A stretch of DNA of 61,596 nt from a virus, in the IMG/VR virus record IMGVR_UViG_3300005366_000004, positions 1 through 61,596 of that record, one strand, 5' to 3'. The translations under genes were made by a program, and so were the position numbers. Under the pieces are notes generated by a model. That model saw nothing but the letters and a program-made list of their open reading frames with translations, was not told where the DNA came from and did not search any database. Shown here piece after piece: positions 5,227 to 37,273 of the stretch. Every line of letters starts with the position of its first letter. Position 1 is the first letter of the stretch.

Positions 5227-5279
5227 TTCTAGTACAATCCCCCTAAGGTTGACGTTTGCGCAATAACAAGGGGGATGGA

Positions 5280-6176
5280 ATGGCAAAGACTTATCTGCTT
5301 GTGCATGAGGTGAGCTATCGGTATGTGACGGCAATGGTTGATTACATCGCCGCGCAGCTAAAAAAGCATTCGCTATTAGATACGGAAATCCACTTCTGCA
5401 AATCAGTCGAAGATGTTTCGTTAGAGCAGAATTCCCTTGTCTATATCATTGGCGACCCTTTCAAGAAATTCACCAGAACAAAGAGCTGCAAATACGTATT
5501 CCTGAATTTCTCGGTGCTGTATGTGCTTGGGAATCCATTCAAATGCAGCTTCTCGGCGTTCAAGCTGATCAGGAAGAAGTGGAAGATTTTCGAGGATAAG
5601 CTGGAATGCTACGACTACGTGCTTGATTATTGGGCCGAGCAGACCGCAGTAATGCAGAAGAAAGTGTCAGTGCCGGTCAAAACCTTCCCGGTGTCGGTCG
5701 ATGTCAGGCAAGATCTGAGCGACCCAAGAAAGTACGATGTCTGCTTCGTTGGCGGCGTCACGCCTCGGCGGGCAAAGATTCTCAAGAAGCTGCAAGCCTT
5801 GGGGATCAGTGTTTCGCCGACGGAGGGCGTTGTCTTTGAGGACGTGGCAGCCGAGTCTAAGATCGTGCTGAATCTTCGCGCACGCCGCAGCAATCATCTT
5901 GAGCTACCGCGAATTGTCGGCGCGTTCGCCACCAAAGCCGCGCTGATTACCGAGCATGATCCCGCGCTAGAAAAGTTCTGCCCTGCCGACATTTACGTCT
6001 CTGCAAAATATGGCGACCTTGTGGATCAGATACAGGCATTGCTGAAGAACCCCGGTCGATTGAACGATATCGCCAGCCGCGCATATTCATGGATGGCAAA
6101 CTCTCATGCTGTTAGATGCGAACGTGAGTGGGGAAATCGCGTTCTTGAGATACACGCAGCACTCGCCGGAAAATGA
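5280..6176 (+). CDS. GT-B-type glycosyltransferase (group 1/CgeB-like), cargo gene
   Basis: 298 residues from ATG 5280; GGGGGATGG lies upstream and the longer frame from 5256 has no ribosome site. The C-terminal half looks like a GT-B nucleotide-sugar domain: YDVCFVGGVTPRRAKILKKL (start of the second Rossmann fold), KIVLNLRARRSNHLELPRIVGAFATKAALITEHDPAL, with the conserved Glu in the donor-site region. Phage glycosyltransferases modify host lipopolysaccharide (blocking superinfection) or phage DNA; which one here is unknown. No DNA-base-modification partner gene is visible, so surface modification in the lysogen is the likelier guess. It sits in the int-proximal rightward operon, a usual place for lysogenic conversion genes. 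Confidence 0.75.
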   Translation: MAKTYLLVHEVSYRYVTAMVDYIAAQLKKHSLLDTEIHFCKSVEDVSLEQNSLVYIIGDPFKKFTRTKSCKYVFLNFSVLYVLGNPFKCSFSAFKLIRKKWKIFEDKLECYDYVLDYWAEQTAVMQKKVSVPVKTFPVSVDVRQDLSDPRKYDVCFVGGVTPRRAKILKKLQALGISVSPTEGVVFEDVAAESKIVLNLRARRSNHLELPRIVGAFATKAALITEHDPALEKFCPADIYVSAKYGDLVDQIQALLKNPGRLNDIASRAYSWMANSHAVRCEREWGNRVLEIHAALAGK

Positions 6177-6361
6177 CGGAATCCGCCCTCTCCCGCCTAC
6201 AGCCCGATGAAATCTGCACTATCGTCATGTGCGACGGGACAAAACGCGACGGCGCATGGTCACCGCGTGACAACGGATTCCATTTATGCGATGGTAAGGG
6301 AGAGGGCTTCATCGCCCACAAGGATGTCTATGAGTGGTGGCCTGCTAGTGTGAAGTTTTAA
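6173..6361 (+). CDS. 62-aa hypothetical protein after the glycosyltransferase
   Basis: ATGA overlap with the glycosyltransferase stop indicates coupled translation. Sequence CDGTKRDGAWSPRDNGFHLC suggests a small beta domain. Its stop overlaps the convergent end of the M14-Kelch gene, so the two operons meet here with no spacer or visible terminator. Confidence 0.6.
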   Translation: MTESALSRLQPDEICTIVMCDGTKRDGAWSPRDNGFHLCDGKGEGFIAHKDVYEWWPASVKF

Positions 6362-9282
6362 AGATGCGGGCCATGGTCGAGCACTCCGCAGCCGGTCATT
6401 GTGTAGCCGCTGATTGCCGTGGTCGAGCAAGTGATGTCGGTGGACATCAAGTTGCCATAGAACCACAGGTCGAACGTCAGGCCCGTCCCCGTCGGCGTGA
6501 TCCGCCAGAAAACCATATCCTTCCGCCATTCCACCTCTGAGCGCGTGTGGTTGAGCATAAAGACCGGGAAGGTATGCGATTGATCGGCACCGTCATTCCA
6601 TCGCAATTGAAACGCGCCGTTTGGGTCAGTGTCGGTCGTATCGCTGGCTGTGTACCAGAGTTCGAGCGACGATAACCCGCCGCTGACTGTGAAGCCCATG
6701 ACCTGCTGATCAACCTGCGACCGACTCGTCCAGTACGGAGAAAACACGCCAGCGACAGGATCGCCAGCGCTGCCGGTGGTGATCGACATCGGGCACGTGC
6801 GCACCACTGCCGCCTGAGATGTGCCTCTGATCAGGTCGAATGCTGCCGCTGCTTTGCTGTCCGTGATTTTCAACACTTGAAAACCGTCGTGGAACTTCAA
6901 CGTTTTACCCGGCGTCCAGACGCGGAAGTAAGCCCGCAACGCTGCCGTCGCGCCCTCGCCTGCCCGAATATAGACGGGCAGCGTCATGGGCGTGGCGTGC
7001 CTCGGCGGGACTCGCCGGAGCGGGTCGATATAACGCCGCGTGCCTCCGGTCTGGCCAAGGATCGCCACTGGCGTGCATTGGACCATCCGATTTTGATCTG
7101 GCGATGTATCAGTCCCCACCCTGGCAACAATGACGTATCGATCACCGTCCGCCGTATCGAATGCCTGCGTCGATCTGATGTACCCGTGCGACGTGGCGGC
7201 GCTGCGAAGGCCAATCGTCGTGCTCCCATCCTGCAGCTCCCACACCTCCGCAGTCCGACCGGCGAGATTCGCGCCAGTCATAAAGGTCATGACCTGATCG
7301 GCGCTCCGATAGCGAGCGATACCGTCTGCATATGCTGGGCTTGTGATCGTGATCAGGGTGCCGTCGTCGTCATAGTCTCCATCGAGGTCGTATGAGTATG
7401 ACGATACTGTTTCGCTCGCCGCATCGAAGATATAAATATCAGACTTCCAATCGGTATCAACGGCGGGCGATGTGGCATTGGTGCCGAATGCAAGATATAC
7501 GCTGGCCGTGCTGTCCGAGGCCGTCGCCGCAATGACCTGCCGGTTGCGCGCCGCTGGCAAGGTCGCAGCGATCACGCTTCGTGCCGCTGTGCTGAGGTTT
7601 AGCTTCTCAATCGATGATTTCACCGACGCCCCGCCGTCGCCGCCGAACACGTAGATATAACCATCCGACCTCAACCAGCTTCTGTGCCGCTGCGTCAGGC
7701 CGGACAGTTGCGCAAACAGCGTCGCCACGCCGGTGGCTGGATTTACCTTGTAAATGTCCTTCGAGACTGCCGACGAGGTTCGACCGCCGATCACGTACAG
7801 ATAGCCACCGTAATAATGCATGGTGTGGCGCTGCAGGGCGATGGGCGATCCGCTGACGGTCACGGATGCCACCTCTACCCAGGCATCCGCTCCGGCCCAT
7901 GTCTTCACATAGAGCTTGTCACTGTACGCGCTCGCCGCCGTGAAACCGCCATAGAACCATACTGACGTGCCATCCGTCGCCACCGCTCCCGATTGGATCG
8001 CCACCGGCAGCGCTGGCGCAGATGTGATTGTTCCATCGACGTTATCGCGGTAACAGGTCGCGGTCGCTCCAGCACCGTCAGCGCCGCCAGCTACAAATCC
8101 GACATCGCCATAGGTGCAATATGCCGCCTTTTCTAGCGCCTTCGGGAATGCGTCGTTGGTTGTTCGGCTCAAGCGGAACCTTCGCCTGGAGTTCCTGCCG
8201 CTGAGATTCGCCCTTGTGTAGTTGAAGAAGCTCGGCCTGTTTTCGGCATCGTTCCACGCAGAGAAATCACTGTTGGAATTGATAACGGATAGCGCGGGCG
8301 TGACAGCCACGCCCATTAGATTTCGCGCCGTCGTGGCGTCTACAGCAGCGGCCATAATCCCGGTGAACAAATCTAAGCCAACAGTCGCGGACACGCCCTG
8401 ATTTTCCGTTTCGGGCACCTCAACGACCAGACTGAAAGCGTCCGGTCTGGAGTGTTGGCGGAACCATGTATTAAGGTACGGTTTCCGATAGCTCCTGTAC
8501 TCCGTCAAAAACGGCGTGTCGTTCACAATCGTGAAGCCGGACCAATCGCGCTGCGATACCAATTGCTGGCAGTAGTTGTACCCGAGCCGGTGCGTGCGCT
8601 CCGCTTCCGGTGCGTGATAAATTTCTTCGACAAGGAACCCCCAAGTGGTCCTACTCCACCAAGCGTGGGTATCCAATGTGCAGATGATCCGCCGGGCGAA
8701 CGTGAGGCCCCATGCCTGTATGCCCGCTGTCTCCGGCTGATCCGAGGGGGCCGCGCCTTTATCTGTGTCCGGTGCCTCGGCCCAAAACCACGGCCAGTTA
8801 CGATTCAGGTTGACACTGTTGGCATTCTGCCGCGTGTCGGCAACCATCCCATCGGGATTGACACCAAGGATCACAACAAGCGCTATATGCTGACGTGCCA
8901 AGGCCAGGATATTGTTGCTGTCGCTTGTGGCGAACTCCTTGGCCGCCGTCATGACGCCCTTGGCAAGATTGAGTTCGTTGCCGTGGATGCCGAGCGAAAT
9001 CAAGACGACAGGCCGCACGCCATCATCGTTGATCCGCATGGCCTTGATCTGCCGCCCACTCGGCAGCGTCGTCACGGTCTCGATCACAACATCAAGATCG
9101 GCGCTTGCGGCAATGTCCGCAGCCGCTGTCTGCAATGTTGCGTAATTGTGCTCAACAGTGGCATCGTCAAAGGGCGACGCGATGTTCTCCAGCTCTTGAA
9201 ATGCAAAATTGGAGGCGAGCAGCGTGCGTCTTGTCGGCGAGTTCGCAGTCGCACTAGATGCAGCATGTGCGGCGACTGTCAT
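6358..9282 (-). CDS. Zinc carboxypeptidase (M14-like) fused to Kelch beta-propeller; last late gene
   Basis: 974 residues. Residues ~60-300 carry the M14 metallocarboxypeptidase signature: H100xxE103 in GIHGNE (zinc ligands), VNPDG and NLNRNW (substrate-carboxylate Asn/Arg, R161), H206 in LDTHAWW (third zinc ligand) and E288 in VVEVPETE (candidate catalytic Glu). Residues ~390-640 hold Kelch-like blades with GG and YGG/VFGG turns (GGRTSSAVSKDIYKVNP, VFGGDGGASVKSSIEKLN). A beta-rich C-terminal region of ~300 residues follows. It overlaps the 116-aa gene upstream by 4 bases and closes the late operon after the lysis genes. M14 enzymes trim C-terminal residues from peptides; in a virion this could act on peptidoglycan stem peptides or surface protein. 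It may be a tailspike or fibre. The role is inferred; the motifs are visible. Confidence 0.85.
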   Translation of the reverse strand: MTVAAHAASSATANSPTRRTLLASNFAFQELENIASPFDDATVEHNYATLQTAAADIAASADLDVVIETVTTLPSGRQIKAMRINDDGVRPVVLISLGIHGNELNLAKGVMTAAKEFATSDSNNILALARQHIALVVILGVNPDGMVADTRQNANSVNLNRNWPWFWAEAPDTDKGAAPSDQPETAGIQAWGLTFARRIICTLDTHAWWSRTTWGFLVEEIYHAPEAERTHRLGYNYCQQLVSQRDWSGFTIVNDTPFLTEYRSYRKPYLNTWFRQHSRPDAFSLVVEVPETENQGVSATVGLDLFTGIMAAAVDATTARNLMGVAVTPALSVINSNSDFSAWNDAENRPSFFNYTRANLSGRNSRRRFRLSRTTNDAFPKALEKAAYCTYGDVGFVAGGADGAGATATCYRDNVDGTITSAPALPVAIQSGAVATDGTSVWFYGGFTAASAYSDKLYVKTWAGADAWVEVASVTVSGSPIALQRHTMHYYGGYLYVIGGRTSSAVSKDIYKVNPATGVATLFAQLSGLTQRHRSWLRSDGYIYVFGGDGGASVKSSIEKLNLSTAARSVIAATLPAARNRQVIAATASDSTASVYLAFGTNATSPAVDTDWKSDIYIFDAASETVSSYSYDLDGDYDDDGTLITITSPAYADGIARYRSADQVMTFMTGANLAGRTAEVWELQDGSTTIGLRSAATSHGYIRSTQAFDTADGDRYVIVARVGTDTSPDQNRMVQCTPVAILGQTGGTRRYIDPLRRVPPRHATPMTLPVYIRAGEGATAALRAYFRVWTPGKTLKFHDGFQVLKITDSKAAAAFDLIRGTSQAAVVRTCPMSITTGSAGDPVAGVFSPYWTSRSQVDQQVMGFTVSGGLSSLELWYTASDTTDTDPNGAFQLRWNDGADQSHTFPVFMLNHTRSEVEWRKDMVFWRITPTGTGLTFDLWFYGNLMSTDITCSTTAISGYTMTGCGVLDHGPHL

Positions 9283-9629
9283 AAGGGAACCCCTAATGCA
9301 AAGGGCTGAATTACCCAGGGCGCACCAGCTCGTGACGTAATGAGCGTGTATATGTCCATCAGTCCCGGCCCGATACTTTGCGCTGGTAATACACCATCAC
9401 TTGGCACCACATTGGCAGGCCACGTGTCAGAGTAGTTGCCAGTGCGCTCAATCATCACTATGAGTGCGGTTGCCTGCGTGACGCTGGAAAAGCTGAATTG
9501 AATATTGCCCGTTTGCGTGATGTCAAACAGGTTATTGCTGCAATCCAAGACAATAGCGCCACTGGCGTTATTAAGTGTCGCCAGCTTTCCATCATTCCTG
9601 TACTCGCCGTATAGCCAATTCTGAGTCAT
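9279..9629 (-). CDS. Small beta-rich structural-type protein
   Basis: 116 residues. Sequence such as GNIQFSFSSVTQATALIVMIERTGNYSDTWPANV resembles the repeating beta modules of phage fibre/neck-decoration proteins. Its start is 21 bases after the lysozyme gene and its end overlaps the M14-Kelch gene, so it may be its partner or chaperone. Not assigned to a family. Confidence 0.6.
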   Translation of the reverse strand: MTQNWLYGEYRNDGKLATLNNASGAIVLDCSNNLFDITQTGNIQFSFSSVTQATALIVMIERTGNYSDTWPANVVPSDGVLPAQSIGPGLMDIYTLITSRAGAPWVIQPFALGVPL

Positions 9630-9650
9630 GTTTATCCAGTATTCCTAGTG

Positions 9651-10112
9651 TTATTCAAGAGAGCATGGATTCATCAATAGAGTGCACTCAACCTCGCGAC
9701 GCATGACTAAGCCGGGTAATTTTCTACCTCCACCCATGACCCATTTACGCAGTTCATTTGCAGCGCCGTCGATATCACCCGCGTTCAGTCGGCGGCGCAG
9801 CGTGGAAGCTTTGAGCCGCCCAAGCCCAAGGTTGAAGGAGAAATCCGCGATTGCAGCGAGTGCATGCGGCTTATCGGTAAGCGTCGGGCATAGCGCTAAA
9901 GTCCCGCGAATGAAGCGCTCCGCATCCATGCGCATGACGACGATGCATTTCTCGCGGCTCCATTCATCTCCAAGGCGTACTTCCGGTCCTGTGTGGCCGA
10001 CACCGATGGTGATTTTTCCCGCTGGGCAGATGTATGATTTCGTCCGCAAACCCTCAAACCTGAGAAGCAACGGCTCTAAGATCTGCATTGCGGCCTCAAT
10101 TGAGGTTTTCAT
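9651..10112 (-). CDS. Endolysin, T4-type lysozyme (GH24)
   Basis: 153 residues, normal for RrrD/T4-like lysozymes. The catalytic set has spacing E20-8 residues-C29-5 residues-T35 (FEGLRTKSYICPAGKITIGVGHT), the E-C-T variant of the usual E-D-T triad. Downstream ALAAIADFSFNLGLGRLKASTLRRRLN and RKWVMGGGRKLPGLVMRRE are the standard family motifs. It cleaves the glycan strands of peptidoglycan. No clear signal or SAR segment is present, so release probably depends on the holin whose gene it overlaps by 4 bases. Confidence 0.93.
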   Translation of the reverse strand: MKTSIEAAMQILEPLLLRFEGLRTKSYICPAGKITIGVGHTGPEVRLGDEWSREKCIVVMRMDAERFIRGTLALCPTLTDKPHALAAIADFSFNLGLGRLKASTLRRRLNAGDIDGAANELRKWVMGGGRKLPGLVMRREVECTLLMNPCSLE

Positions 10113-10576
10113 TTTCGCAGGCTGTTATGGATGCGCTCACCGACGAACACGCCAAGGAAAGCGGCGATCAGCGTTTCGTCGAACTCGCGCAGCACAAATC
10201 CGGCGGCGACCATAGTCGCGATCCAGATAAGAAGGGAAACGGTAGCACCGGCAGGACGAATTGCGGCGTTCCAGGCATCTGCCCACAGCACGCCAGTCTT
10301 TACGCCGGTTGCCTTAACCGCCTCGATAAAGGCGCTTGCCTCGGCCTGCGAGATAGCGGCATCGGCCACGACCTGCACTTGCTGCACCTGGAGCTGGGCC
10401 TGAAGTTTGATGCGCTCCATGTCGCGGCTGTGTCGCTGCGCTTCGAGTTCGGACTGCAGGCGCTGCAGCTCCATTTCTTGCTCGTGGTCTTGGCGCTTGT
10501 CGAGGAAGTCCATCACTGCGCCGAAGATTAGACGGAATGCAGAACCGCCTAGGAACGAGAATAATGCCGTAAACAT
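10109..10576 (-). CDS. Holin_3TM-like membrane protein
   Basis: 155 residues. An N-terminal hydrophobic helix (LFSFLGGSAFRLIFGAVM), a long amphipathic coiled coil (~25-95), then NAAIRPAGATVSLLIWIATMVAAGFVL and a final segment AAFLGVFVGERI. This order (helix, coiled coil, xxIRP, two membrane segments) matches the three-span holin family of gene-transfer-agent and phage lysis cassettes. It overlaps the endolysin gene. Ribosome site GGAGG lies at the end of the 21-codon ORF upstream. Confidence 0.75.
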   Translation of the reverse strand: MFTALFSFLGGSAFRLIFGAVMDFLDKRQDHEQEMELQRLQSELEAQRHSRDMERIKLQAQLQVQQVQVVADAAISQAEASAFIEAVKATGVKTGVLWADAWNAAIRPAGATVSLLIWIATMVAAGFVLREFDETLIAAFLGVFVGERIHNSLRK

Positions 10577-10646: not shown

Positions 10647-10963
10647 CTCTGATTCCTCGCCTCGCGTTCCGCCTTTAGCACGTCAGCCACAACCGCCATC
10701 GCTTGATTTCCCTTGCCCATGGCAGCCATCATTCCAAGGCTTCTCTCGATACGAGTAATCGTGTCCCATCCGACCATCTTGCTTTCAATGACAGTTACCC
10801 TAGACTGAAGCGCCGCGATTTGGCTTTGCTGCACGGTGATCGTGTTCAGCAGTTGCGTTTGGCCTTCATTGACCTTCCATAGGAGCCCAGCTACCCCAAC
10901 AATCAGCAACTTTGCTAACCAGTCCGCGAATTGAACCAAATACTTCCTCATCTCGTTTTTCAT
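10643..10963 (-). CDS. Membrane-anchored coiled-coil protein in the lysis cassette
   Basis: 106 residues from ATG 10963, preceded by GGAGG; the longer frame has no ribosome site. One transmembrane helix (LLIVGVAGLLW) then a coiled coil (GQTQLLNTITVQQSQIAALQSRVTVIES). This is the topology of an i-spanin or an accessory lysis protein. No separate lipoprotein o-spanin was found nearby on this strand. Spanin role is only a suggestion. Confidence 0.6.
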   Translation of the reverse strand: MKNEMRKYLVQFADWLAKLLIVGVAGLLWKVNEGQTQLLNTITVQQSQIAALQSRVTVIESKMVGWDTITRIERSLGMMAAMGKGNQAMAVVADVLKAEREARNQR

Positions 10964-11421
10964 GCTGCCTCCGGGTGAATTGCCATCAGCATGTTTCCGC
11001 TGATATGGCCGGTGTCTTGGAATATGATTCTTCCGGCCTTGTGAATGGTTGCCGCAGCAAGCTCGAAGCACTCCCATCTATCGTCTTCTTGCCAATCACG
11101 ATCAGGCGATAGCGCAAGACCGAGAGCGCCCTTCCAGTCGTATCCCTTATCTACCTGATGCCGTGCCCACTCAAGACCAGCCTCGGCATTCGGCACCTGA
11201 TACGTAATGCGCTCGACTTCTACGCATCCTTTCATCGCCTCGGAAAGCAATACCCGGCGCGCACCCTGCAGCATGTTTGCCTCAATCACATAGTCGCCAT
11301 CGACAACCATGCAGTGAGAGGCGCGGGCGAAATAGAAGCGGCTTCGAGGCAAAGCCCATCGGATCAGCCATGAGGCAGGATTGAAGCGCCGTTTTGTGAA
11401 AATTATCGTGATGGTGTCCAT
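10960..11421 (-). CDS. YiiX/permuted NlpC-P60-like cysteine hydrolase
   Basis: 153 residues. The order of candidate catalytic residues is permuted: His in ASHCMVVDGDYVIEA comes first and Cys in RWECFELAAATIH comes last, with a DWKGALGLAL segment between. That is the YiiX/YebB-like layout seen in many phage and bacterial proteins. Substrate unknown; peptide or lipid amide bonds are the family's targets. ATGA overlap with the next gene. It lies just upstream of the lysis genes, so a part in envelope breakdown or entry is possible. Confidence 0.75.
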   Translation of the reverse strand: MDTITIIFTKRRFNPASWLIRWALPRSRFYFARASHCMVVDGDYVIEANMLQGARRVLLSEAMKGCVEVERITYQVPNAEAGLEWARHQVDKGYDWKGALGLALSPDRDWQEDDRWECFELAAATIHKAGRIIFQDTGHISGNMLMAIHPEAA

Positions 11422-11474: not shown

Positions 11475-12512
11475 TCACCAAAGACCGAAAATTTTTGCTG
11501 CAACAGCAATCGCGATCAGAGCGCCTATGATCAGGATCGGCGTGCTGTCCGATTTCTCGGGCTGCGGTTCTGGTTTTGGTGGAGTCGGAGGAACTGGCGC
11601 AGGGTCTGGCTTCGGCGGTGCTGGGTCTGGCGGCGGAACGACTTCCGGGCCGGGTGAGACTGGTGGCGGTTCTGGCTGTGGCGCGGGAACTGGCGCAGGC
11701 TTGGTCAGATCAGCGCCTACACTGTCAATACCCGCAAACTCCCTCACCACCCACAAGTCGATGAGATCAACGATAACGACAAGTGCGGAGCAAGTGAAAT
11801 ATCCCTTGTCGCACCAATCCTCGCCCCATGAATTGGCGATCTTCAGCATTACCCTGTCAGGCAGGCGCTTGTATCCGCCGATGACCAAGGCATGATTTCC
11901 CCAATAGGGATTGGTCGTCGGATTGATGAGGCTGTACGGCGTACCGGCTGGGAGATCGCGCAGCTTCTGCCCTACCCGCATGGCGGCCATCACCGGCCAG
12001 CCTTTCGCCAGCGCGTACATGATTTTGTGGATCATGTCGTCGTTTGCGCTGACCGGAATGCGCAGGTACTCACCCACCTTGTAATTCAGAGCGTCTGCGT
12101 ATGCCTCCGGCTGGGGGCGCTCGTTGATCTTCTCATCGTCGTATTGGCAGAACTTCTCACGCGATATGCCGAGCTTGTTTGCCGCTCTCAGCGCCATCCG
12201 GAGCGTGCTGCCTGGATCGCCTTCTAGGAATTGCGGGCCGAGTAGCTCGCGGCTCGTGAAGTAGTTGAACCTTGGCGATAGGTCGCCATCGTCGTCGGCT
12301 GGCGTATCTTGAAAAAGGCCAGCCGCAGCACGGTACATCTCCCCCGTCTTGACCATGCTTTGCGCTGTGCATGAACCAGCGCTCAGTTGATTCTGAGGGA
12401 ATCCGCCGTAGGTGAATAGATCGACCTCATCAGGCAATAGCGCGTCCGGATCGACTTCGAACAGAAAGTCGCGGCTGTCCTGCGGATCAGGCTGGAGGTT
12501 GGAGAGTTGCAT
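11475..12512 (-). CDS. Papain-like (C1) cysteine peptidase with Pro-rich stalk and C-terminal membrane anchor
   Basis: 345 residues. Catalytic elements of family C1: Q42 and C48 in QLSAGSCTAQSM, H207 in WGNHALVIGGYK, N227 in IANSWGEDWCDKGYF. The order Q-C-H-N and spacing fit papain. No propeptide of normal size is present. After residue 270 comes a ~50-residue Pro-rich linker (KPAPVPAPQPEPPP and similar), then one transmembrane helix (TPILIIGALIAIAVAAKIFGLW). The protein would be tethered to a membrane with the protease on a stalk. It is the first gene of the lysis side of the late operon. Targets are unknown. Confidence 0.88.
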   Translation of the reverse strand: MQLSNLQPDPQDSRDFLFEVDPDALLPDEVDLFTYGGFPQNQLSAGSCTAQSMVKTGEMYRAAAGLFQDTPADDDGDLSPRFNYFTSRELLGPQFLEGDPGSTLRMALRAANKLGISREKFCQYDDEKINERPQPEAYADALNYKVGEYLRIPVSANDDMIHKIMYALAKGWPVMAAMRVGQKLRDLPAGTPYSLINPTTNPYWGNHALVIGGYKRLPDRVMLKIANSWGEDWCDKGYFTCSALVVIVDLIDLWVVREFAGIDSVGADLTKPAPVPAPQPEPPPVSPGPEVVPPPDPAPPKPDPAPVPPTPPKPEPQPEKSDSTPILIIGALIAIAVAAKIFGLW

Positions 12513-22182: not shown

Positions 22183-22611
22183 TCACTCCGGAATAATCCA
22201 AACAGCAGATTGCGCCTGAAGGGCGAGCGCAAGTGCCTGCGCCAGTTCATCTTTCGTTACATCGACCGCGCTGTTATCGTGCAAGACCCAGGTGCATGAT
22301 GTTTGGCCGGTGATGTCCGCCACTTTCAGCGCCCGCGCCATGCGCTCTTGGCTGATCTCGTCGCCGTCGAAGACTTTTCCGTTCACCTCGACCGTGATTG
22401 CATCAACTATTGCTTGGCGCTGAGCCTTCAGCTCGTCGCGTGTTGGGGGCGGCAATTGAGGTGCGTACCCATCCGGCGCATCGATAACTTCGGCAGCCCC
22501 AATCACGTCGAACTGCATGTCCAAATCGCCGTTGCAGCGGTAGCGGTCGCTCAAAACCTCAACTGTATGAAATGGCCCGAACGTCTCGGTAGCGGTCTGA
22601 ATCAGTTTCAT
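22183..22611 (-). CDS. DUF4376-type protein, tail-fibre accessory
   Basis: 142 residues from ATG 22611, in ATGA overlap with the fibre-like gene. The C-terminal ~100 residues have the DUF4376 pattern (RDELKAQRQAIVDAITVEVNGKVFDGDEISQERMARALK, then WVLHDNSAVDVTKDELAQALALA). Members usually follow tail-fibre genes and may act in fibre assembly or attachment. Role inferred. Confidence 0.75.
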   Translation of the reverse strand: MKLIQTATETFGPFHTVEVLSDRYRCNGDLDMQFDVIGAAEVIDAPDGYAPQLPPPTRDELKAQRQAIVDAITVEVNGKVFDGDEISQERMARALKVADITGQTSCTWVLHDNSAVDVTKDELAQALALALQAQSAVWIIPE

Positions 22612-24329
22612 GCTGCTGCCTCCACTTTGCAGAATATGAGACCTGTTGTGCTGAATGCTCCTTGTATCCAAGATGCGTTCGTTGCGATTGGATATCCGGC
22701 TGGTCCTAGAGAGGCGGCAAGAACGTTAGGTAACGGAAGCTGGAAAATGCCGGTTGAGCTAACGTAAATGCCGTTGACTACACCAGCAGTGGAGCTCGGC
22801 GCAATGGCATATGCTGCACCTCCTGCTATAAGGTTTTGCCATGCTCGAAGGTTGTAAATATTTGCTGGTCTTAGCCTACTTACGGATGCGGTGGCAATCG
22901 GAATAATCGATGACAATACCGGCGACGTTCCAGAGGTATCAACATTAATTGCCATGCAAACGCTGGTGGATGTATCTGCGTAAAACAGGCCATTTGATCC
23001 AGATAGCGATATTGCCGCCTGCGCGGAAATCTGCATGTTACCGACAACGTTTTGTAAAACTTCCGTTCCAGCAGAAGCGGTTCCAGCCGTGTCGATTAGA
23101 TGATTAAGCCCAAAACTCGTATTGCTCGCATGGTAAAGGACGCATAGTTTCGTGTTGCTTACTGCCAGCGTGTCGATTGCGGTCGTGGCATTCGTCGGGG
23201 TGATGCCAGAACTGAGCGTCGCTACACTGATAGCGGCTACTGTTCCAGACACCGAAACCACTGCGCCTTTAAGTGACGTGTTCATGTGGAATACGGCGAT
23301 ATTCCCAGACCCTAGAGCCTGCGACCGATAAGCAGCGGAAGATGTTGCAGTGTTGGCCTCAGTACCAGCGGACAAAGCTGATCCTGATACTGTCCAAGGC
23401 TTGGCGTAGAGGTTTGTTGCCGTCGCCTCAATCGCCAGAACCACACTGGAGCTGATTGTGTAAATCGTCGGCGCAGTCGCAACAGATCCTGATGCCGTTG
23501 TAGCCGCAGACTCAGATCCGATTGTTGGCGTGGTGCCCGATATTGTGATTGCGCGAATTGCGGATACACTGGCGGCCCGGCCATAGCTGACTACCCAAGA
23601 CGACCCCACTGCCTTCAACTGACCGAATGCATTCCAGTTCCCTGCGAGAGTTGCAGTGCCCTTTGTCCCGCTATTGACCGTGATTCCGGTTGTAGAGTCG
23701 ATGGTCAGCGTTACGGCTTCCATCGCCGTTGTGCCATCGCATGAAACAATAAGAACTTGGCTTGCAGCAGATAAGATCGCCAAGAAGTTTCCTGAGCTTA
23801 TGCCGGTTCTGACCGTGGCAACAGCTCCCCACTGCGATCCTGCAGCCTGACTTGAATCGTAAACAACCGCGTAGAGCGTCGTCCCAGCGCCGCCAACAAG
23901 GCAAACACGATTAGAATCGATAGTGATCGCCGTAAAATAGCTCGAACTTACGCCAGTATTCGTAGCAGTCGCATTGACGAGCTGCGCCGTGACGCCAGTT
24001 TTCGCAATTCCAGGGATCGACCAAGTGCCAGCCGCAGAATTTGCCGCCAGACTGATAGAAACGCCAGTTTTCGGGCGAATCCATCCGAGTTGGGTGCCGG
24101 TGCTGTCCTTGATCCCGTAGTCGTAATCCCCGGCGTTATAAATGCTGGCTATCTGCGCTCCCACTGCCGCAGCGTTCCCGTTTGGCAGCGTTGCGTAATA
24201 ACCGGGAGCGGCTGGTGTCACGACATATGCCGAAGATGTCCCGCCGGTTAGCGTTACGTTACCCGTCGCCGTACTCCCGCTTCCGAGGAATGCGGATGGC
24301 GCAGGAAATCCAAACGTCCCATTATTCAT
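22608..24329 (-). CDS. Beta-rich tail fibre-like protein
   Basis: 573 residues of Ser/Thr/Ala/Gly-rich beta repeats, e.g. NSGTKGTATLAGNWNAFGQLKAVGSSWVVSYGRA, with blade-like repeats of ~45-50 residues suggesting a beta-propeller or repeated sheet. Few charged residues. Starts 2 bases after the 215-aa gene. Likely receptor-binding or fibre component together with its neighbours; not assignable further. Confidence 0.65.
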   Translation of the reverse strand: MNNGTFGFPAPSAFLGSGSTATGNVTLTGGTSSAYVVTPAAPGYYATLPNGNAAAVGAQIASIYNAGDYDYGIKDSTGTQLGWIRPKTGVSISLAANSAAGTWSIPGIAKTGVTAQLVNATATNTGVSSSYFTAITIDSNRVCLVGGAGTTLYAVVYDSSQAAGSQWGAVATVRTGISSGNFLAILSAASQVLIVSCDGTTAMEAVTLTIDSTTGITVNSGTKGTATLAGNWNAFGQLKAVGSSWVVSYGRAASVSAIRAITISGTTPTIGSESAATTASGSVATAPTIYTISSSVVLAIEATATNLYAKPWTVSGSALSAGTEANTATSSAAYRSQALGSGNIAVFHMNTSLKGAVVSVSGTVAAISVATLSSGITPTNATTAIDTLAVSNTKLCVLYHASNTSFGLNHLIDTAGTASAGTEVLQNVVGNMQISAQAAISLSGSNGLFYADTSTSVCMAINVDTSGTSPVLSSIIPIATASVSRLRPANIYNLRAWQNLIAGGAAYAIAPSSTAGVVNGIYVSSTGIFQLPLPNVLAASLGPAGYPIATNASWIQGAFSTTGLIFCKVEAAA

Positions 24330-32838: not shown

Positions 32839-33005
32839 TTGCCGCCCTTCTTGATCTGGCCGCCCTTCTTGTAGCCGGGGACGCCGTTATCGCGCTTGGC
32901 TGTGGTGATCGGGCCTGCTGGCAAGCCTTTAACCATCCCGCCCGTTTTCAGCTTCTGGGCCATTGCCATCTGCTTGTGTTGCGGAACCGATTTGTTGCCT
33001 TTCAT
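32832..33005 (-). CDS. 57-aa Lys/Gly-rich protein overlapping the portal 3' end
   Basis: Reads MKGNKSVPQHKQMAMAQKLK, then TGGMVKGLPAGPITTAKRDN and GVPGYKKGGQIKKGGKC. AGGAGAAGCAT precedes the ATG. It overlaps the last 77 bases of the portal gene in another frame. Small basic proteins ending in GGQIKKGGK are common after the portal in podovirus genomes; function unknown. Confidence 0.65.
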   Translation of the reverse strand: MKGNKSVPQHKQMAMAQKLKTGGMVKGLPAGPITTAKRDNGVPGYKKGGQIKKGGKC

Positions 33006-35643
33006 ATGCTTCTCCTATTTGCTGGTTGCTGTCTTTCGCTGCCAATTGAAGAATGGTTCGCAGCGTCGCCATCTGCTCTTGGTACTGCAAACGTTCCATT
33101 TCGCGCTCTTGACGACTTCTCTCGCGCTCGGACTCCATCGTCTCCCGCATCTGCTGCAAGAAAGCATCGAACTTGTTGTCCTGCTCGTTCTTTGCAAGTT
33201 CGGTTTGCTGCTCTGCTGCGGTCTGGTCAGCTTCGGCCTTCGCCGCCAACTGTGAGGCATGAGTATCAGCAGCGAATTTAGCCGCATCGCGTTGCTGTTC
33301 TGCCTGCAAATCCTGCGCCTTCTCTGCGGATTCCTGCTGCATCTCCATGGTCTTCAACTTCTCGTTGGATGCGATCTGCATCTGACCGAGATTCATCGTG
33401 ACCTGTGATGCCGGATCAAGTTGCGGAGGCGGCTGGAATTGCTGCATGAGTTGCTGGGCCTGCTGGAGCATCTGCATGATTGGCGCAAGTTCTTGCGCCA
33501 TTCTCTGATCAGCTAGAGCCGAACCGTGAAGCTGCGTCTTGCTGTCGTCTTCCGGCTGGCCGGTGACTTCGGTCAGTGCCCCAGTTGCAGCCGCCACATG
33601 TTGCGCGTAGTACATCGGCAGATGCTCTTTCACCACGTGCTGAATCAGCGTCGGTAAAGCCGGTATTGCTGCAATCGGATTGGCGCAAAAGATCGGGGAG
33701 AGCGCATAGTGCATGTGCGTCATCATGTGCGCTAAGTGGTCCTGATCTTCGTACGCCTTCAGCGGCTGCTTGCCTTCGGATGCCTTCACGTTCTCCTGAA
33801 TCGCATCGAGGCGCTCCGGCTCGAATGTCTCAATCAGAACCTCGTTTGCTTCCGGGAAGTTCAGCAGTCGCAGAGCGCGCCGATTGAGTTGATCCAGCTT
33901 GTAGAACTGCGGGAACTGCTCTGCAAGCTGCATCACAGCCTGGAGCTGTGCGTAACGCTGCGCCTCAGAGAAGATATTCGGGTCCGAGACGGGAATCACA
34001 TCCATCGGGCCTTCAAAATCAGCCCGACTGACGATCAAATCGCCCAGTTCTTCGACTGTCTCCTGATCGTCTAGGTGATCGCGGTTGATGCGATGCAGGA
34101 TCTCCAGCACCTTCATCTGCGCCGCGTGAAGTCTCGAATGGATCGCCGAGAACGTAACGCTGCCCTGCTCGATCAATGCCAATGCAGTGCCGACCGGCAT
34201 ATTGTTCGAGGCATCGGCGATCTTCTCCTCTGCCGTTGCCACAACACCCTTGGCCTGATTCGTCAGCCAATCCAGAAGTTGGAACAGGACTTCAGATGGC
34301 GGATTGAACGGCATCGGCATCGCGATTTTGCGGATGTCGTCAATGTTCGGCGTTGCGTCAATCTCCGTTACTTCGGTAGGCGAAATCGAGATATTCTGAC
34401 CGGCTTCTCGTGCGCCCTTCAATTTCAGCATGCCGGGCATGTTGTTGATGTGCGCCGAGTCCATCAGTGCACGCAACGCGCCAGTCAAAGCGCCAGACAT
34501 AGAGCCGATGATGTGCGGCAAACCTATGCCATACGCGCCACGCCACGGGATGAACTTGAACTCAACAATCCACTCCAGCGCTTCCGGGTTGATGTCGTCG
34601 GCGTCATTGTCGCCGTCGTCTTCCCAGTTGCGGTAAATCGCCAGAACCTTGCGCGTGCAGTCATCAACCGTGATGATGTACGGCGCTGGCTTCGGCATCA
34701 GCGGGTCGGAGATTTCGTAATCCACGTATATCTCGTAGATTTTACGAAGCCCGTCTTCGTTGTCGTATGCTGCATCCTCCAAGCCTTCGATCTTATCCGT
34801 CGCCTTCTTGGAGTCAGACCCCTCCGGCAATTGTGGATCGGCTATCGTAATGTCTCGATAGAGGCCAGATACAATGCGCGACTCGAACGCCTGCCGCGTG
34901 ATCATCTGCTGATGCGTCTTGCGGTGCGCGCTGTAGAAGTCGGAGCACGCATACGGCAGGAAGATGTCATCAATCGGGATGAACTCAGAACGCGGGCGCT
35001 CTACTCGCTCGTCGTACCAGACCTTCAGATACTGGCTACCACCAAGCGGCAATTGCGTCAGGAGCTGCTCAAGCTCGGCGCGGTACTCTCGAATCTGCTT
35101 CGTGAGCTGCCAGTTCATGTATGACTTCTTGCGCTCGGCTTTCTCGATCTTGGCATCCGTTGCCTCGCCGATAATCTGCGTTTTGCACGGGCCAGCAGCA
35201 GGGAAAATTTCCTTGATCGCCCGTGCGGCGAAGTCGATGCAGCCTTCAGCCAGAACAGGATGCACCACCTTGCTTGCGCCGTCGAAGTCCGCGCCGCCTG
35301 GAGCGTCATCACCCAGGCCAGTCCGGCGAATGCCATCGGCATACTGCTTATCGCGCTTCTCGCGGGCTTTCTTGTCCTTCTCGATCAGATCAAGCAAGTC
35401 ACCAGCGATGGCGCGCAGCTCGTTCTCTTCCAGTCGTTCGGCGAGGTTGTCGAGGAAATCGCCAGCGTCTTCCTCTTCATCCTCGTCGAGAACGATGGTT
35501 GCAGAGCCGTCGGGATTCTCGATGACGTTGCCCTCGGCCAGCGGGTCATCCTCTTCGGGTGCTGGCGGCTCGTCCACGATGGGCGCAATATTCCTGCCGT
35601 ACTCCTGTTCGATTTCTGGGATATGCGGTGGCTTGTTCGGCAT
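32929..35643 (-). CDS. Portal protein
   Basis: 904 residues. N-terminal acidic tail (EEDDPLAEGNVIENPDGSATIVLDEDEEED), then the portal core: DLLDLIEKDKKAREKRDKQYADGIRRTGLGDDAPGGADFDGASKVVHPVLAEGCIDFAARAIKEIFP. A large wing region follows and MSGALTGALRALMDSAHINNMPGMLK and the helices of the crown. The last ~200 residues are a Gln/Ala/Glu coiled coil typical of large podovirus portals. It forms the dodecameric DNA channel at the capsid vertex. Starts after a terminator-ribosome site cassette. Confidence 0.85.
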   Translation of the reverse strand: MPNKPPHIPEIEQEYGRNIAPIVDEPPAPEEDDPLAEGNVIENPDGSATIVLDEDEEEDAGDFLDNLAERLEENELRAIAGDLLDLIEKDKKAREKRDKQYADGIRRTGLGDDAPGGADFDGASKVVHPVLAEGCIDFAARAIKEIFPAAGPCKTQIIGEATDAKIEKAERKKSYMNWQLTKQIREYRAELEQLLTQLPLGGSQYLKVWYDERVERPRSEFIPIDDIFLPYACSDFYSAHRKTHQQMITRQAFESRIVSGLYRDITIADPQLPEGSDSKKATDKIEGLEDAAYDNEDGLRKIYEIYVDYEISDPLMPKPAPYIITVDDCTRKVLAIYRNWEDDGDNDADDINPEALEWIVEFKFIPWRGAYGIGLPHIIGSMSGALTGALRALMDSAHINNMPGMLKLKGAREAGQNISISPTEVTEIDATPNIDDIRKIAMPMPFNPPSEVLFQLLDWLTNQAKGVVATAEEKIADASNNMPVGTALALIEQGSVTFSAIHSRLHAAQMKVLEILHRINRDHLDDQETVEELGDLIVSRADFEGPMDVIPVSDPNIFSEAQRYAQLQAVMQLAEQFPQFYKLDQLNRRALRLLNFPEANEVLIETFEPERLDAIQENVKASEGKQPLKAYEDQDHLAHMMTHMHYALSPIFCANPIAAIPALPTLIQHVVKEHLPMYYAQHVAAATGALTEVTGQPEDDSKTQLHGSALADQRMAQELAPIMQMLQQAQQLMQQFQPPPQLDPASQVTMNLGQMQIASNEKLKTMEMQQESAEKAQDLQAEQQRDAAKFAADTHASQLAAKAEADQTAAEQQTELAKNEQDNKFDAFLQQMRETMESERERSRQEREMERLQYQEQMATLRTILQLAAKDSNQQIGEAYERQQIGSATQADGNGPEAENGRDG

Positions 35644-35661: not shown

Positions 35662-35684
35662 AAAAAAGCCGCTCAATGGCGGCT
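35662..35684 (-). terminator. Intrinsic terminator directly upstream of the portal gene
   Basis: Minus strand AGCCGC-CATTGA-GCGGCT then TTTTTTATTGCC; it overlaps the terminase stop by one base. The stem and T-run are clear; the next ATG follows ~20 bases later with a poor ribosome site. Confidence 0.7.
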
Positions 35685-37273
35685 TATGTTGCATATGGGT
35701 TGCTGCGTTTTCGGCTGTAATCCGCCGTCTCCGGCTCGTCATCCTCATACTCAGGAAGCACAAGCATGTTCGTATCTTTGAGATAGATCATTGCCTGCGT
35801 GAAAGAATCAACCAGGTCGTCATGTTCTCCGTTCGGGAACTGCTCGCACTGCTTCAGCAGCTTGCGCGCCCATGTGATCGGCTTGCCCGGCTCCTTCTTC
35901 GACTCCAGTACGTAGATCACATCCATTTCGAGGACTGGCGCAGTCAAGTGCGCTCTCAGCTCCTTGCTTGCCTTCCCTGGGTTGTACGTGTGAACCGGGA
36001 TGCCAGTGCGGCGCAAGTCCCGAATCAGCGCGATCCCGCTCGCCTTTTCCTCGATCATCAGCATGTCAGCCCTGCGCGCCGGATGCATCGGGTCATCCTT
36101 GACACCGCCGTACCTTGCGCTCCAGTCGTCGATCAGCTTCGGGCGAAGATCTGGATAGCTGATATGCTCGTCCCACGCATCCAGCAGCAATGCACACTTG
36201 CGGCGCTTGTGCGTGAAGATCCCCCACACAGTGCAGGCTGTCGGATCGTTGGACTCGTCATCTGTAAATGCTGTGTCGTAGCTTTGCAGGACGAATTCCA
36301 AGTCTGGCAATGGCGTGTGTGCGGGCCAGAGCTGGAAATGATCAGTCCTCAGAATGCCACCACCGGCTGGAGACGGACGCTGCTGCAACTGCCCTGCCGC
36401 GCCGTACTCACCGAGTCGCGTGGACAGCGTCTTGACCACGTTCTTCGGGTACAAACTTGGCCACAGAAGCTCACCGTGCTCAGTGCGCGGATCGCCGTCC
36501 AACGGTGTCCTACACTGCGGCCCCTCGTACTCCATCGGCAAGCAGAGATGCACCCAGTCTTTCTTATAGTCCGCCTGCTCCATGATGTGACCGGACAGGT
36601 CTTTCTCGTGGAGCCGCTGCATTACCACGACAGTGGCAGCACCACGAGATGCGCCACGAGACGAGAGCGTGCGGTCAAACCAGTTCAACGCTTGGACACG
36701 TTCAGCATCCGATTCCGCCTTTTTGACGTTGTGCGGATCGTCGATGATCTTGCGGTCTGGGTGGTGACCAGTGCCGCGCCCGCCGACAGAGGACGACATG
36801 CGGAAGCCGCCAGCAGTCAATGCGTAATGCAGCTTCTGGTTGATATCCTTGCGGATCGCAATGCTAGGCCACAGCCGCTGATACCATTCGGACGTAATGA
36901 TGTCCCGGCATTTCATCGCGTCGCGGATAGACAGCGATTCATCGTATGACGCACCAAAGTACCGAAGCGCCGGGTTCTGCGTCCACTCCCACGCGGGCCA
37001 CATGACCGACACGAGAATTGACTTCATCGTCCCTGGAGGAACGTTAATCAACAGGTTCTTGATCTCGCCGCGAGTGACGGCTTCGAGATGCTCACAAATG
37101 ACATCGATGTGCCAGTTGTGTTTGTATTCTTCGGCTGGCTCAATGACGTGCCATGCTTGCTCTACGAAATTAACTAGCTTTGTGCAGTGACGGCGCTCTT
37201 GCTCCAGTTCTGCAGCGGCCAGCAGTTCCTTGATCCTAGCTGGCGTGAGGTTGCCTAGGTCTGAGAGGTTCAT
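35684..37273 (-). CDS. Terminase large subunit
   Basis: 529 residues. ATPase: Walker A-like VPPGTMKS at 78-85, then RYFGASYDESLSIRDAMK and the DDPHN acid pair near 175. Nuclease domain: DTAFTDDES (~345), EEKASG, and GEHDDLVDSFTQA (~490) supply the RNase-H-type acidic residues. This is the packaging motor of phages with headful or cos packaging; the type cannot be told. It starts 3 bases after the HEAVH gene's stop. Confidence 0.95.
   Translation of the reverse strand: MNLSDLGNLTPARIKELLAAAELEQERRHCTKLVNFVEQAWHVIEPAEEYKHNWHIDVICEHLEAVTRGEIKNLLINVPPGTMKSILVSVMWPAWEWTQNPALRYFGASYDESLSIRDAMKCRDIITSEWYQRLWPSIAIRKDINQKLHYALTAGGFRMSSSVGGRGTGHHPDRKIIDDPHNVKKAESDAERVQALNWFDRTLSSRGASRGAATVVVMQRLHEKDLSGHIMEQADYKKDWVHLCLPMEYEGPQCRTPLDGDPRTEHGELLWPSLYPKNVVKTLSTRLGEYGAAGQLQQRPSPAGGGILRTDHFQLWPAHTPLPDLEFVLQSYDTAFTDDESNDPTACTVWGIFTHKRRKCALLLDAWDEHISYPDLRPKLIDDWSARYGGVKDDPMHPARRADMLMIEEKASGIALIRDLRRTGIPVHTYNPGKASKELRAHLTAPVLEMDVIYVLESKKEPGKPITWARKLLKQCEQFPNGEHDDLVDSFTQAMIYLKDTNMLVLPEYEDDEPETADYSRKRSNPYAT

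Follow-up and report, generated by a model that had tools for sequence, protein, structure and literature searches.

What use would a bacteriophage have for a carboxypeptidase joined to a beta-propeller? The question is raised by a gene in the stretch of 61,596 nucleotides analyzed here (the window), which comes from a soil bacteriophage. For the open reading frame at 6358–9282, an earlier note had proposed an M14 zinc carboxypeptidase followed by a Kelch propeller and a beta-rich region, and each part of this architecture was borne out. The gene lies on the minus strand and runs from ATG to stop, encoding a protein of 974 amino acids. The M14 metallocarboxypeptidase domain spans residues 27–320 (8323–9204, minus strand); Pfam places Peptidase_M14 (PF00246) at residues 73–213 with E = 1.7e-15, and the profile of the M14-Kelch family described below matched the solved structures of carboxypeptidases A, B, and T, with a best E-value of 3e-19. 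The Kelch beta-propeller occupies residues 377–695 approximately (7198–8154, minus strand), for which Pfam recognized PF24681 (E = 2.5e-13) and Kelch_6 (3.3e-10) with repeats at about 426–587, and Kelch domains were likewise matched by the family profile. The C-terminal residues 696–974 (6361–7197, minus strand) are conserved within the M14-Kelch family and gave no family match in the Pfam search.

Structure prediction was consistent with this division. The full-length AlphaFold2 model was mediocre overall (mean pLDDT 69, pTM 0.42); a large share of the M14 and Kelch domains was confident, with pLDDT values for the Kelch part mostly around 90 to residue 600 and lower beyond, and residues 696–974 were modeled as beta-rich with low confidence. 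A structure search with the whole protein listed Kelch folds only, and for this reason the M14 domain was folded separately, which gave a pLDDT of 83.5 and a pTM of 0.87. All 50 matches listed by VIA for this model were carboxypeptidases, with carboxypeptidase B (7eqx_C) superimposing at 2.8 Å over 260 residues (Z 24.7), and Foldseek agreed. The propeller model superimposed on the Kelch domain of NS1-BP at 2.3 Å over 282 residues (VIA Z 35.5). Pfam, the profile, and VIA all point to Kelch repeats arranged in a propeller.

Comparison with a relative of the same architecture on an 87.7-kb siphophage contig (L003, 75% identity) served to evaluate the reality of the reading frame. With a pS of about 0.9, synonymous sites were saturated; nonsynonymous differences amounted to 0.14–0.20 per site in the M14 domain, linker, Kelch domain, and C-terminus alike. 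This combination indicates that the M14-Kelch protein is a real, selected protein rather than a product of chance and, judged from these rates, purifying selection acts on all of its major domains. A hypervariable, receptor-binding propeller found no support in this comparison, divergence being similar across the M14, Kelch, and C-terminal parts.

Additional relatives were found by scans of viral contigs and by tblastn. The same architecture is present in a fragment of another siphophage (L008, 62% identity), in a 347-kb phage (L023, 31%), in a 36-kb siphophage (L012, 29%), and in Pseudoalteromonas phage J2-1 (26%). More distant members include proteins of 1500 amino acids (L015–L017), and the M14 domain is joined to other parts in L013 and L018–L020. 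The L013 protein (6952–10434) is an M14-Kelch protein extended at its N-terminus by a cysteine-rich stretch of about 95 residues that resembles a zinc ribbon; those of L019 and L020 are fiber-like phage proteins in which the M14 domain follows repeated fiber segments, the N-terminus of L019 resembling a baseplate protein by eye. One pattern scan of limited sensitivity over 84,980 bacterial and archaeal genomes recovered no full-length cellular relatives; the matches, which came from two genomes, were short and at the M14 level only.

The surroundings of the gene in these phages bear upon where the protein acts. In the window, the gene directly upstream (9279–9629, minus strand, 116 amino acids) is of a tail-fiber-tip type, with PHROG tail-fiber matches at E-values of 1e-4 and weaker and a match to PHROG 5596, of unknown function, at 1.5e-7; its stop codon overlaps the start codon of the M14-Kelch gene (ATGA). 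A fiber-tip-type gene is found directly upstream, with the start/stop overlap, in L003, L008, L012, and L023 as well; in the partner-domain alignment, identity to L012 and to L023 is no higher than 17%. Three relatives carry a tail-hub N-terminus in the same polypeptide: L009 (3364–6735) and L010 (4090–6855) have it in front of M14 and Kelch, and L014 (2554–4242) has it in front of M14 and ends before Kelch. This hub part comprises about 215 N-terminal residues and matches PHROG 4271 ('tail protein') with E-values of 2e-28 to 3e-33. The L009 protein gave tblastn matches to 'GTA TIM-barrel-like domain' tail proteins, and its gene belongs to a distal-tail operon that also encodes DUF2460, a baseplate-hub protein, and an NlpC-like protein; a separate short gene just upstream has the same hub N-terminal match. 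Because L009, L010, and L014 fuse the M14 module to a tail-hub N-terminus, a tail location is likely for the window protein too, the assignment resting on its relatives. The option of a virion-borne enzyme, left open in the earlier note, is thereby well supported by sequence comparison, both from the hub fusions and from the coupling to a fiber-tip-type neighbor.

We also examined the active site in an alignment of nine divergent M14-Kelch proteins, the window protein included, with identities of 26–35% (L014 is only partial). The four motifs that had been named, HGNE (H100/E103), NLNRNW (N160/R161), DTHAWW (H206), and EVPETE (E288), are all present, and H100, E103, R151, N160, R161, H206, and E288 are invariant in the nine proteins; the same seven catalytic and zinc residues are kept in the J2-1 relative at 26% identity. 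Within the motifs, the N of HGNE varies and W163 of NLNRNW is Y in L023. The zinc ligands H100, E103, and H206 align with H69, E72, and H196 of carboxypeptidase A, giving the HxxE pair and the distal His. R151, N160, and R161 correspond to R127, N144, and R145, the set for the terminal carboxylate, in a profile alignment that covers the first-half residues, and E288 corresponds to the general base E270 by motif and because the model places it in a core strand. An additional signature, E261-x-R-S-x-R-K-x-Y, is invariant in the nine proteins, R263 being Thr in J2-1; the invariant basic loop (R266/K267) suggests that the family prefers acidic or otherwise negatively charged substrates. The window protein is probably an active, tail-associated metallocarboxypeptidase with a propeller.

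Taken together, the reading that we favor, and think probable, is that of an active carboxypeptidase of the tail fiber or tail tip, which docks through its propeller and works at the cell surface as the phage adsorbs or enters. The M14-Kelch protein would sit at the distal end of the tail (fiber tip or tail tip), and the short fiber-tip-type partner encoded by the overlapping gene would be its neighbor or its point of attachment. Docking on the host surface would fall to the Kelch propeller and the C-terminal beta domains, and the M14 domain, as an active zinc carboxypeptidase, would cleave C-terminal residues off a peptide of the surface or the cell wall at adsorption or entry. We infer, for the window phage, the presence of the protein in the virion, its catalytic activity, and its use at the cell surface. 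As to the substrate, the stem peptide of peptidoglycan is our leading candidate, a surface protein or peptide polymer stands only a little behind it, and some other substrate is the least expected of the three; nothing was found in favor of pili, which had been listed along with murein peptides and surface proteins.

A narrower version of this reading, which is possible but on balance doubtful, holds that the protein is a tail-borne murein enzyme that trims or opens stem peptides at entry, like M14 peptidases of the MpaA/Csd4 type, and so aids DNA injection. Phages whose backbones differ greatly all keep the active-site loop, as would suit a substrate that is found everywhere, and one tail-tip fusion occurs in a module that also carries an NlpC/P60-like protein. 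There is a distant similarity to MpaA (NCBIfam PRK10602, E = 2.8e-6; MpaA in the PDB, 1.7e-9 with the profile), but the score of 26.5 bits lies far below the curated cut-off of 157, and membership among the MpaA murein tripeptide amidases was rejected on this basis. Furthermore, the closest folds are carboxypeptidases of the A/B type, a carboxypeptidase alone would open the wall poorly, and a propeller is unexpected on an enzyme that penetrates the wall.

The genes that the window shares with the L003 siphophage bear upon a second version. The two phages have in common the M14-Kelch protein, the fiber-tip partner (54%), a large fiber-like protein (22608–24329, minus strand; 57–58%), a small neighbor of the latter (47%), and a papain-like (C1) protein (11475–12512, minus strand; 52%). 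The fiber-like protein has no family match and may be a fiber on account of its position and of the low-complexity N-terminus of its relative. The papain-like protein has a proline-rich tail, and the product of the adjoining gene (10960–11421) is weakly similar to permuted papain proteins of the C92/YiiX type; the two products are possibly further envelope enzymes. As intervals of the window, the shared segments (L003/L039) are 22183–24329, 11475–12512, and 6358–9629. In searches with a positive control, the portal and a 587-residue virion protein of the window had no match in the L003 siphophage; the terminase (TerL) had none in the relatives, a negative that by itself shows little. This pattern fits a history in which adsorption genes passed between phages that are unrelated but infect a similar host, which the two would presumably share. 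A tail module exchanged widely among phages might edit the receptor: the propeller would recognize a surface protein or peptide and the carboxypeptidase would trim its C-terminus, leading to commitment to ejection or to release of the virion. It would be a proteinaceous counterpart of the polysaccharide-depolymerase tailspikes, and we offer it tentatively, as more speculative than the favored reading of a surface-acting tail carboxypeptidase.

Three further explanations depart from that reading. The M14 fold might have been turned into a receptor-binding module that has lost cleavage. The position of D142 of carboxypeptidase A, the Asp of the DxNRN motif, is Asn in the M14-Kelch family (VNLNRN), and no single Tyr is clearly equivalent to Tyr248, given that Y262 varies and that Y269 is invariant but offset. 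However, the zinc ligands and the residues like R127, N144, R145, and E270 are invariant at 26–35% identity, whereas a protein that only binds should have lost them, and we consider loss of activity unlikely.

It is similarly improbable, and slightly more so, that the protein is a late-made factor for lysis or release outside the virion. The M14-Kelch gene closes a minus-strand run that contains the terminase (35684–37273), the portal (32929–35643), other virion genes, ejection-protein genes, and lysis genes, and the next gene is convergent, in agreement with its earlier description as the last late gene ('late' being judged by position only). The order toward M14-Kelch is papain-like gene, weakly C92/YiiX-like gene, small genes, phage lysozyme (endolysin; 9651–10112, minus strand), and fiber-tip-type gene. 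M14-Kelch is thus the last gene after the lysozyme in the window, and its neighbors are of the holin type in L012, whilst in J2-1 there is a small helical gene next to it; this proximity to lysis-type genes in the three phages was counted against a tail location. On the other hand, a fiber-type partner lies in between, fiber and lysis genes are commonly neighbors in phages, and relatives carry tail-hub fusions. Between the roles in entry and in lysis that had both been suggested, lysis is the less likely, even though the gene sits beside lysis genes.

Least probable is a cargo gene for lysogenic conversion that acts on the host cell: the phage has an integrase (1546–2841), and M14-Kelch lies near that end beside a glycosyltransferase-like gene (5256–6176, on the opposite strand and convergent with it), but inspection by eye showed no clear secretion signal at the N-terminus of the protein, its start overlaps a fiber-type gene of the late strand, and its relatives include hub fusions and proteins of phages with other layouts. 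The sole hint of a host comes from the integrase, which shows 55% identity to a locus of Burkholderia cenocepacia, and the glycosyltransferase-like gene could possibly serve lysogenic conversion of the surface bound by the fibers. A role in anti-phage defense was dismissed in that there was no PADLOC match.

Enzymes that cut polysaccharides are textbook components of phage tails; unlike these, tail-borne exopeptidases have hardly been studied. The M14-Kelch family, which is found in phages of about 36 kb to 347 kb, including the cultured phage J2-1, and as hub fusions, provides a concrete set for asking which surface peptide phages trim. We found no description of the family in the literature searched. 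The earlier view of the protein as unusual is tempered by the recurrence of M14 in phage tail modules and of Kelch in other virion proteins. A review states that phages rarely produce carboxypeptidases (PMC6116005), and another remarks that a zinc carboxypeptidase domain, found in the Clostridium perfringens phage phiCP24R, had not been reported from viruses before (PMC9234517). M14 domains in phage tail modules are already annotated, and M14-Kelch would be a new variant within the tail-borne enzymes that act on the host surface.

The J2-1 protein, annotated only as a 'Kelch motif family protein' (ATN93378.1), is a full-length homolog with the same domain order and the catalytic residues kept, although its gene adjoins the helical gene and the terminase rather than a fiber-tip gene. 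The tail-module zinc carboxypeptidases (Staphylococcus phage StB20, Bacillus phages Pony and Page, phiCP24R; PHROG 4722) are likewise M14 proteins, mostly from the tail region, with the same zinc-site motifs, but no Kelch propeller is reported for them and identity is 17–24% in the aligned M14 examples. In StB20 (L026) the M14 gene is annotated 'tail protein' and lies between a tail endopeptidase and a tail fiber; a nearby gene annotated as a poly-gamma-glutamate hydrolase hints at a capsule-directed use there. M14 genes are annotated in tail modules of Pony, Halomonas phage YPHTV-1, and Stenotrophomonas phage BUCT702, and beside a 'phage tail protein' on a Paenibacillus plasmid, where an acidic loop (DNDTP) replaces the basic R-x-R-K-P or similar of the M14-Kelch family, a contrast that likewise suggests, without proving it, a taste of the latter for negatively charged substrates. 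Carboxypeptidases A and B (M14A) share the fold and the catalytic residues with the window protein, which differs in that no pro-domain was found and in its Asn at the D142 position, its charged substrate-side loop, and its propeller. The Kelch propellers of the jumbo phages PhiPA3, Noxifer, and Phabio also occur in proteins annotated as virion structural, with no M14 domain evident among the matches listed. The gamma-PGA hydrolases PghP and PghL are, like the window protein, phage-borne zinc hydrolases of a related fold, and they strip capsules of this surface polymer (PMC6506827, PMC4497714). Membership in their family was rejected, there being no PF05908 match: PghP and PghL have His77, Thr79, and Ser80 in place of R127, N144, and R145 (PMC6506827), whereas the window protein keeps the carboxypeptidase set.
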